From assembly GCF_000003815.2 (NCBI RefSeq), contig NC_049986.1, positions 10,402,369 through 10,466,368 on the forward strand: a stretch of 64,000 nucleotides of DNA. The letters are read 5' to 3'. The stretch's first letter is position 1. The number at the start of each line of letters is the position of its first letter. This document shows, one piece after another, positions 28,074-57,546 of this stretch. The position numbers and the translations under genes are program-made. This DNA is from Branchiostoma floridae. Lineage: Eukaryota > Chordata > Leptocardii > Amphioxiformes > Branchiostomatidae. Under the pieces are notes generated by a model. The model saw only the letters and a program-made list of their open reading frames with translations, ran no database searches and was not told the DNA's origin.

Positions 28074-31000
28074 ATGGCAACAGCGAGAAGCCCCGAGTCC
28101 AGCCCTAAAGCGGTGTTCGTCTATCCAGTTACGGGGTCGGAGGTTGAGCTCGAGCTGGAGGGTGCAACCCAGAGATACCTGAAACAGTTTCTAAAGCTTC
28201 CACGGTTTCCGAACGCTCTTATAAACAAAGAGACGCACCAGGTGGTTCTCTTTAAGGGGAAGGGAGTAGACAGCCAGTTTTCAAACCTGGAACCAGGAGC
28301 AGTGTATGAGGTTCAACTCAATGAAGATGCCGGTGACGCAGCAGGTAAGCAGATAGCATGGTATTTGCTCACCATGAGGATGGGAAGTAAGAACTTCAAC
28401 TCTTTATGAGGGTCTGCATGGGGGGGGGGGGTCATGGTAACGCTTAACGGTAAATTCAGGAGGCCTAGTAACGCTTAACGGTAAATTCAGGAGGGTTTAC
28501 AAAGCATACCTGTAATGATTGTCGCGCAGTCCTATTCGTACAACGCTAGATTAGGGTGTCTCAATGGGTGAAAATATCTGACTAATTATTATAAATGACA
28601 TTGTGAGAAGGAAAAGGTGCCCAGAACCCGGGTGAATGACAGGGATAATGTCCGCTGCGTCATTGATATTTGCTTCCCATGGGGCAGTGTTCTCGCTACA
28701 CAGACGGCGACAGTAAATTTCTTATGGGGGGGGGGGGAGATATGATATTGCAGACAAAATTTTCAGCACATGGAGCGCCGAAGGCGCGACGCATCCTATG
28801 GGGGTCCGGGGGTATGCTCCCCGGGAAAATTTTTAAATCACGAACCTCTGAAATGCTATTTCCTGCATATTTCGGCAGACTGATTTAAGCTAGCTTAATG
28901 GCATTTTTCGTCAAGATTCATGGTTAGAGCTTTGACCTCCACCCCGACATCTTTTTGACCATTTCGAGCTCGGAAGGCACGAGACGTTGCAAAATAAATC
29001 CGGCGAAATTTCAAAATCTTGACTGTCTGAAGCGCAATATCCTGCATGTTGAGGACAAATTTTGCTGGCGGAGGAAGCTTAATTAAATGACATCAAAGTT
29101 TTATAAGAAAAGTTTTTTTTGGGGGGGGGGGGGCGACGATCCACGCACCCGACATATTTTCGCCATGTTGTCGTGAGCGCCAAGGGCGCAAGCCGACGCA
29201 TCGCAAGGGAGGTCCGGAGAAACCTCATTTTCTGCATTCGATTTTGTATATTTTGTGCCTGAAACTAAGCGAAATTTGACACTGAGATCTCTATGAGTGA
29301 AAGGGTTTTTGAGGGCGACGCTTCCGCGACATATTTTTACTACCAGTGCCGAAGGCCGGGGGACCGGGAAATTTTGAAATCTGGACCCTCTGAAACGCCA
29401 TTTCCCGCATAATTTTTCAGGGACTCTGTCTGGCATTTGACTTCGTGACTTGACATTTCTTGGTAACGTTTAACGGTGAATTCGGGATAACAAATAACGA
29501 TTAACGTTGAATTAAAACGACCAATAACGCTTCACGAAGAATATACCGGTAACGATTAACGGTGAATTAGAGCGGGTCAGTAACAATTAACAGTGAATTA
29601 AAATGGCTCGTAACGCTTAACGGAAAAAGGCATGCAGGCCCTCCTATAACCCAACATATCGAAAGAAAGCATTAAGCACGTTCACGTTTCTGAGTACACA
29701 TGTGCAGCAACGAATTGCGGGTAACATGTCATTGGTGAACGTTCGGACGCTTCTGACATGAAGCTAAGTAGGACCATGCTCTTGAGACATGAAACATAAA
29801 CAAAACACCTCTGGACATATTGTTATGCAAATGAAGACAGTGATAGAGACGAGAACTATTAACAACTCAAATGCCTTCATCTTTGACATATTACCCACGA
29901 TTCCTGTATCTGCATATGCGTGAATATGTTTATCAGACAACAATGACAAAAACACGTGTTGTAGAGGCCTTATCAATAATGTCACCTGAATACCTAATGT
30001 GTCAACACCTCAGACTCAGAGATTATTGATGTTACATATATAATTAGTAGATCACTTAAGATCCATGTTATAATTCACTTTAGATATTTAAGTATGATGA
30101 TCTAAAGACATTTCAGGAGATTTGTGCAAAATTTGTCTATACTCACGCGCCGAGTTTACGCAAAATTTAACTTAAAATCATTCTTATGTACATGTTATCA
30201 AATGAACTTCACGGCGCGCGTTCTGCACCAAGTCGGAGATTATGAATTTCCCACAGCTTTATTCTTTTTAACATTTGAATACATATTGTTGAAGGAAAAA
30301 AAGTTTCCATGGCTCTCTCTCCGCAAGCCAAGAAAGTTCTCCCTGGTCCTCCCCAAGCCGAAATAAAATTCCTAGGCCCTGACCCTCCCTCAGACCACCG
30401 CCTCCCGCACGCTGAATGTCGTCGAATAAACCCTGTTGACGACCATCAGAAATGGAGAACCTTTGTGGAGGGACTGCCCCTGTGACTGGTAGCTATGGGA
30501 CTGAGATAATGATGAGAAACCCTGTTGGAAAAATATGGGACGTTGTGTAAATTGCTCAAGATGCATAACGTTAAATATATTAAAAAATTATCAAAATTCA
30601 CCTTTACCTTCTTGACTTATCCTGTGTCATCATCTGCAACTTAATCAGTTTACCCTTCCAGGTAGAAATGCTAGGCTAACCATGTAAAGGTAACATTCTG
30701 CATTTGCTTGCAAATGTTACCTTTCTAGTTTTCATTCTGTTTACTGCTTTTTAGTTTCTGTTTCCCTCTTTTTTCTCTTTCAAATGTGTAGACCAATAAA
30801 GATTGCAAACTTTGCAAGCGCAAAAATGTAAAATTAAATCTATAAGTTATGAAAATAAAGAAAAATAAAACTGCTGAACAATAAACGTTATACGTCATGT
30901 TCATATCAGTCATTGTTTCATGCCAAGTTGCAGAGGCACCCTCACAGTCAACCAACCCGTCGGCTAAGAACAATGAGGTAGACATCCAGCGGGCCATGGT

Positions 31001-57546: not shown

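Follow-up and report, generated by a model that had tools for sequence, protein, structure and literature searches.

LeoA and LeoBC, dynamin-like defence proteins of bacteria, constitute the system named Eleos. Bacterial GTPase-centred conflict systems, as described in PMC7159879, bring together TRAFAC GTPases and effectors that include an alpha/beta-hydrolase. Here, we describe an intron-bearing gene of the lancelet Branchiostoma floridae that is predicted to place a class-3 lipase and a P-loop domain of the G fold on one polypeptide chain. The window, that is, the whole 64,000-nucleotide stretch of DNA analysed (C8:10402369-10466368), was studied together with the 513.4 Mb assembly of 431 contigs. 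No description of a lipase and G-domain pair was found in the literature searched, which took in a minority of subscription journals; as far as these searches reach, the pairing appears to be a new domain combination.

The gene and its relatives in the genome

An independent rebuild yielded 14 exons at 28074-57546 on the plus strand, joined to 1058 residues with no internal stops and with consistent phases, and so reproduced the join of about 1058 residues free of phase conflict that the initial annotation had claimed. The motif positions given there were also correct (FRGT at 171, GHSMGG at 238 with Ser240, DPVP at 303, GPQNGGKST at 868 and DFPG at 913, together with His446). Twelve of the 13 introns have GT-AG ends, and intron 10 has GC-AG. 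The parts of the gene, with a retrotransposon frame that is no part of its product, are as follows.

28074..28344, plus strand: exon 1, start codon; residues 1-91, N-terminal domain without a known family
30934..31179, plus strand: exon 2, where the lipase core begins and runs to FRG
38247..38704, plus strand: exon 3, FRGT completed; GHSMGG with Ser240 at 38447-38449; DPVP with Asp303 at 38636-38638
46881..47223, plus strand: exon 4, helical insertion between the catalytic Asp and His, then a strand hairpin (low-confidence model)
48145..48351, plus strand: exon 5, probable catalytic His446 at 48162-48164; acceptor 27 bases past an assembly gap
48793..48885, plus strand: exon 6, linker domain with no Pfam match
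49532..49698, plus strand: exon 7, linker domain with no Pfam match
50605..50767, plus strand: exon 8, linker from lipase to G domain
51200..53719, minus strand: non-LTR retrotransposon frame inside intron 8, reverse transcriptase and endonuclease (RVT_1, 6.8e-34)
54283..54489, plus strand: exon 9, linker from lipase to G domain
55287..55443, plus strand: exon 10, Gly/Ala-rich hydrophobic segment at residues 728-746, mean hydropathy 2.01; GC donor
55607..55712, plus strand: exon 11, segment preceding the G domain
55908..56219, plus strand: exon 12, G domain with Walker A GPQNGGKST at 56091-56117
56683..56907, plus strand: exon 13, G domain with DFPG at 56689-56700 and the altered G4 stretch CISHCG at 56869-56886
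57325..57546, plus strand: exon 14, C-terminal end and stop codon

A plus-strand exon scan gave 454 candidates, and its top seven non-overlapping places are seven exons of the model; of the 13 exons from exon 2 onward, 12 are within the first 30, eight with exact ends, on a codon table trained partly on exons 2, 3, 12, 13 and 14 and an upstream DAXX-like frame. The minus-strand control had high scorers too, at 27.0 and 15.1 (the retrotransposon frame) and 16.9 (a TTTC repeat). Codon-use scores were poor for exons 8 and 10, and exons 6, 12 and 13 were not distinct from intronic open stretches in a test of amino-acid composition. Assembly gaps are found within introns 3 and 4. The doubts over the weakly scoring exons are removed by eight sister genes elsewhere in the genome, in which these exons recur in unchanged order.

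A genome search returned 14 matches to Lipase_3, made up of nine fused genes, three genes on C4 and two weak matches (C19 and C13). The G-domain protein, in a search whose counts are minimum values where families are large, gave 27 matches at E up to 0.01, corresponding to three exons in each of the nine fused genes and nothing else, and the whole-genome search found no G-domain match on C4. The relatives of the window gene found in this way are located as follows.

C9, 3.02-3.04 Mb: sister gene B
C9, 24.02-24.17 Mb: sister genes C, D, E, F, G, H and A (minus strand for four, plus strand for three)
C4, 29.26, 29.64 and 29.67 Mb: lipase-only relatives L043, L045 and L046

In all eight sister genes, the lipase exons are followed by the G-domain exons, on one strand within each gene. 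All 14 exons could be modelled with an intact frame in four of the nine genes (the window gene, A, E and H). The exons without a model are exon 1 of B, F and G, exons 1 and 5 of D, and exons 5 and 14 of C; the genome searches match exon 1 of B and D and exon 14 of C. Conservation of intron phase is built into these models, because the script that made them required the phases of the window gene. Intron 7, the place where a split into two genes had been suspected, is 148 bp long in A, 159 in F, 160 in E, 187 in G and 669 in H, and 1094-3346 bp in B, C and D. The initial claim of a single polypeptide with both domains is borne out by the shared exon order and the short intron 7 of four sister genes, and it is nearly certain, as read from these gene structures, that lipase and G domain form one fused chain. 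On the same comparison, the nine fused lipase and G-fold genes are a conserved family.

The lipase-only relatives on C4 have a homologous lipase exon (33.8-38.5% identity), and one of them keeps a domain like that of exon 1, but they differ from the family in having lipase exons 3 and 4 fused as one exon. An unrooted lipase tree sets the nine fused genes apart from these three at 100/100, a grouping that would be compatible with one fusion event and is no proof of it. The main split among the genes is common to the lipase and G-domain trees, with 100/100 in each. In finer detail, B groups with A in lipase exon 3 (90/87) and with the window gene in G-domain exons 12-13 (95/96), and these conflicting pairings hint at gene conversion or recombination.

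The dN/dS ratio was 0.05-0.31 for lipase exon 3 (18 of 36 pairs, dS under 1.2), 0.14-0.35 for exons 12-13 (17 of 36 pairs) and 0.19-1.00 for exons 8-9 (16 of 36 pairs), the value of 1.00 being that of C against D, where dN and dS are both 0.037. These ratios show purifying selection on both the lipase and the G domain.

The remainder of the window holds a DAXX-like gene upstream at 11988-13643 on the plus strand (histone-binding domain, 4.8e-27; N-terminal domain, 2.7e-6). On the minus strand at 59.8-60.6 kb are cysteine-rich exon pieces resembling membrane spans, which by eye recall VOPP1 or Shisa-type proteins, and the two frames scanned there had no Pfam match. At 21951-22229 is a minisatellite with a 42-base unit, present in 6.6 copies with 95% matches and open in several reading frames; at 37183-37633 a 63-base unit is repeated 7.1 times. 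Rfam gave nothing at gathering scores, and no tRNA was found. Other collections were searched for relatives of the gene. The best 10 of 53 plasmid protein matches had E values of 0.03-0.7 and were mainly ABC transporters where annotated, and none was taken as a relative. Pattern matches arose among viral contigs and genome contigs, in collections devoted to organisms other than animals, and none was confirmed as a relative.

Properties of the lipase, the linker and the G domain

The Pfam model Lipase_3 (PF01764) matches residues 168-309 of the window protein with an E value of 2.2e-22 and 79.9 bits, against a curated cut-off of 22, and matches sister proteins A and H at 1.1e-20 and 9e-19. The motifs of Ser240 and Asp303 are kept in all nine genes and His446 in all seven in which exon 5 is modelled; the other candidate, His403, is missing from the C-H group of sister genes. 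From this conservation, His446 is the probable catalytic histidine, and the description of the protein as a class-3 lipase with a named triad agrees with both the Lipase_3 match and the conservation of the triad residues across the sisters. Among PDB sequences, the lipase part matches fungal lipases (best 1.7e-8) and EDS1/PAD4 (6.1e-5 and 1.1e-4). Its match to an esterase/lipase family is the sole one in PHROGs, while NCBIfam gave weak P-loop and lipase likeness under its cut-offs.

Pfam has no family for the first 100 residues of the window protein or for residues ~440-806, and two weak matches in the exon 4-5 stretch (E of 0.2) are not meaningful. A single-sequence model of exon 1, of low confidence, gives the order strand-strand-helix-strand-strand-helix-strand. 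Inspection of the N-terminus found no hydrophobic leader, and the protein is therefore likely intracellular. A hydrophobic stretch encoded by exons 9-10 is present in all nine genes, with a best 19-residue hydropathy of 1.45-2.11; the peak is modest, and the segment of gene B is an Ala/Gly run and not a classic membrane span.

At the C-terminal end, MMR_HSR1 matches residues 864-959 of the window protein (2.5e-7) and sister proteins A and H (7.2e-7 and 5.4e-6). Dynamin_N has a cut-off of 27 bits; the whole window protein scores 23.0, below it, and the isolated domain 27.9, just above it, with 28.0 for sister A and 23.1 for sister H. Both models match all eight members scanned at E up to 0.01. 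An alignment of G domains comprises eight of the nine, with E left out and C represented without exon 14. The Walker A motif is kept in nine of nine genes and DFPG in eight, with DFHG as the switch II motif in exon 13 of gene E (C9:24087297-24087512). The guanine motif N/TKxD (G4) is replaced by [SN][QH]CG in every gene, in the forms SHCG, SQCG or NQCG. In a profile comparison with solved structures, mitochondrial IF-2 was best (6.9e-7), and its NKCD aligns with the [SN][QH]CG of the family. The initial annotation of a GTPase with Walker A and DFPG thus stands for the P-loop G domain, as judged by motifs and profile models; the altered guanine motif, which it did not mention, calls for a correction. 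With G4 missing from all nine genes, the label 'GTPase' is unproven and GTP is not established as the ligand; a scaffold role with nucleotide bound is conceivable for the domain. Why the guanine motif should be lost throughout the family beside an intact Walker A is a clear biochemical puzzle that could be solved with a single purified protein.

The proposed dynamin/IRG-like affiliation was likewise right in part. The Dynamin/Era-like character is suggested by the MMR_HSR1 and Dynamin_N matches, whereas Pfam models for IRG, GIMAP and GBP gave nothing at E<=1 with the whole protein or at E<=10 with the isolated domain, under HMMER filters that drop most weak matches. Among the eight members, PADLOC models for LeoA and mad8 each matched seven (LeoA best 5.6e-7), LeoBC six and AriA five, and DO-GTPase2 weakly matched four (best 0.0022). 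Only ~80 residues follow the G4 position in the window protein, so there is no dynamin-style stalk behind the G domain; one built from the region preceding it is conceivable.

Possible mechanism and biological role

The best explanation of these features, in which we place guarded and slightly better than even confidence, is a lipase that acts inside the cell in association with membranes and is controlled by a nucleotide switch at its C-terminus. The predicted layout comprises the N-terminal domain, a catalytically equipped class-3 lipase, a linker that contains the Gly/Ala-rich hydrophobic stretch and, at the C-terminus, a P-loop domain of the TRAFAC type (Era/dynamin-like). The hydrophobic segment would carry the protein to a membrane, and the C-terminal domain, on binding or turning over nucleotide, would alter the shape or assembly of the protein. 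That change may open or present the lipase, which would then cut lipids of the membrane or of lipid droplets as its presumed substrates.

An ordinary enzyme of lipid metabolism, acting at lipid droplets or endosomes with a G-like domain that only targets organelles and with no role in defence, is a serious if somewhat doubtful alternative. It is in keeping with the strong purifying selection and the absence of an overall arms-race sign, and class-3 lipases are mostly metabolic, but the seven-gene array on C9, with genes in both orientations, would be more typical of environment-facing or defence genes. A little less probable, and on the unlikely side, is a G fold without nucleotide preference, or without nucleotide binding at all, that serves the lipase as a scaffold or dimerisation part. 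The replacement of NKxD throughout the family and the alignment of the replaced stretch with the NKCD of mitochondrial IF-2 argue for such a pseudo-GTPase, yet the intact Walker A and the nearly invariant DxPG are both under purifying selection, which suggests that phosphate binding still matters.

It is unlikely, though worth considering, that the protein is a cell-autonomous immune effector, as the initial annotation proposed with its GTP-controlled destruction of membranes; the P-loop domain would sense membranes that bear pathogens, or assemble on them, and thereby unleash the lipase. The tandem expansion on C9, the weak profile likeness of the G domain to LeoA and DO-GTPase2 (seven and four of the eight members) and the alpha/beta-hydrolase effectors of bacterial GTPase-centred conflict systems (PMC7159879) point in this direction, and the missing IRG, GIMAP and GBP matches and a dN/dS far below 1 for both the lipase and the G domain point away from it. 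The recently expanded gene cluster thus fits the immune idea and does not show it.

Hardly credible is a wrong joining of two adjoining genes, one for the lipase with exon 7 as its last exon and the other for the G domain with exon 8 as its first: read-through of the exon 7 donor does reach a stop at 49717 with an AATAAA 46 bases on, an in-frame ATG lies at 50542, 21 codons upstream of exon 8, and the codon use of that exon is poor, but the AATAAA is part of a 14-base word found again at 56966, the chance of meeting such a hexamer within 50 bases is ~6% here, the sisters have exons 7 and 8 together with an intron of just 148-187 bp between them in A, E, F and G, and none of the 27 G-domain matches falls outside the nine fused genes. 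With stop and polyadenylation context, splice and AATAAA frequencies weighed, the two-gene model was rejected on the sister genes.

Returning to the nucleotide-switched lipase, a bolder and rather improbable version would see a chordate lineage of nucleotide-gated intracellular lipases, fused once, now in nine copies and with guanine specificity given up, each serving defence or organelle turnover as an effector able to attack membranes on its own. Coupling of a lipid hydrolase to an NTP switch would place the timed remodelling or destruction of membranes in the hands of one protein and, if related to defence, would parallel the bacterial GTPase-centred conflict systems. The nine fused genes and their three lipase-only cousins offer a ready comparison of what the switch contributes.

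Comparison with known systems

The lipase core has FRGT, GHSxGG, DPVP and a conserved His in common with class-3 lipases, both the fungal enzymes and the lipase-like plant proteins EDS1/PAD4. Unlike these, the window protein has a helical insertion of ~100 residues between Asp and His, an extra N-terminal domain and the C-terminal P-loop domain. With the Dynamin/Era-type TRAFAC GTPases, the family has in common GPQxxGK[ST]T, DxPG and the profile matches in the eight members scanned, and it differs from them by the missing NKxD/TKxD and by the C-terminal position of its G domain. The conflict systems with DO-GTPases (PMC7159879) are multi-gene and prokaryotic, whereas the window gene encodes a single animal polypeptide. 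The likeness to the bacterial dynamin-like defence proteins LeoA and LeoBC consists of weak profile similarity in the G domain. These are encoded by two dynamin-like genes in a prokaryotic operon, in contrast to the intron-bearing animal gene described here, which has no operon partner and carries its lipase on the same polypeptide.
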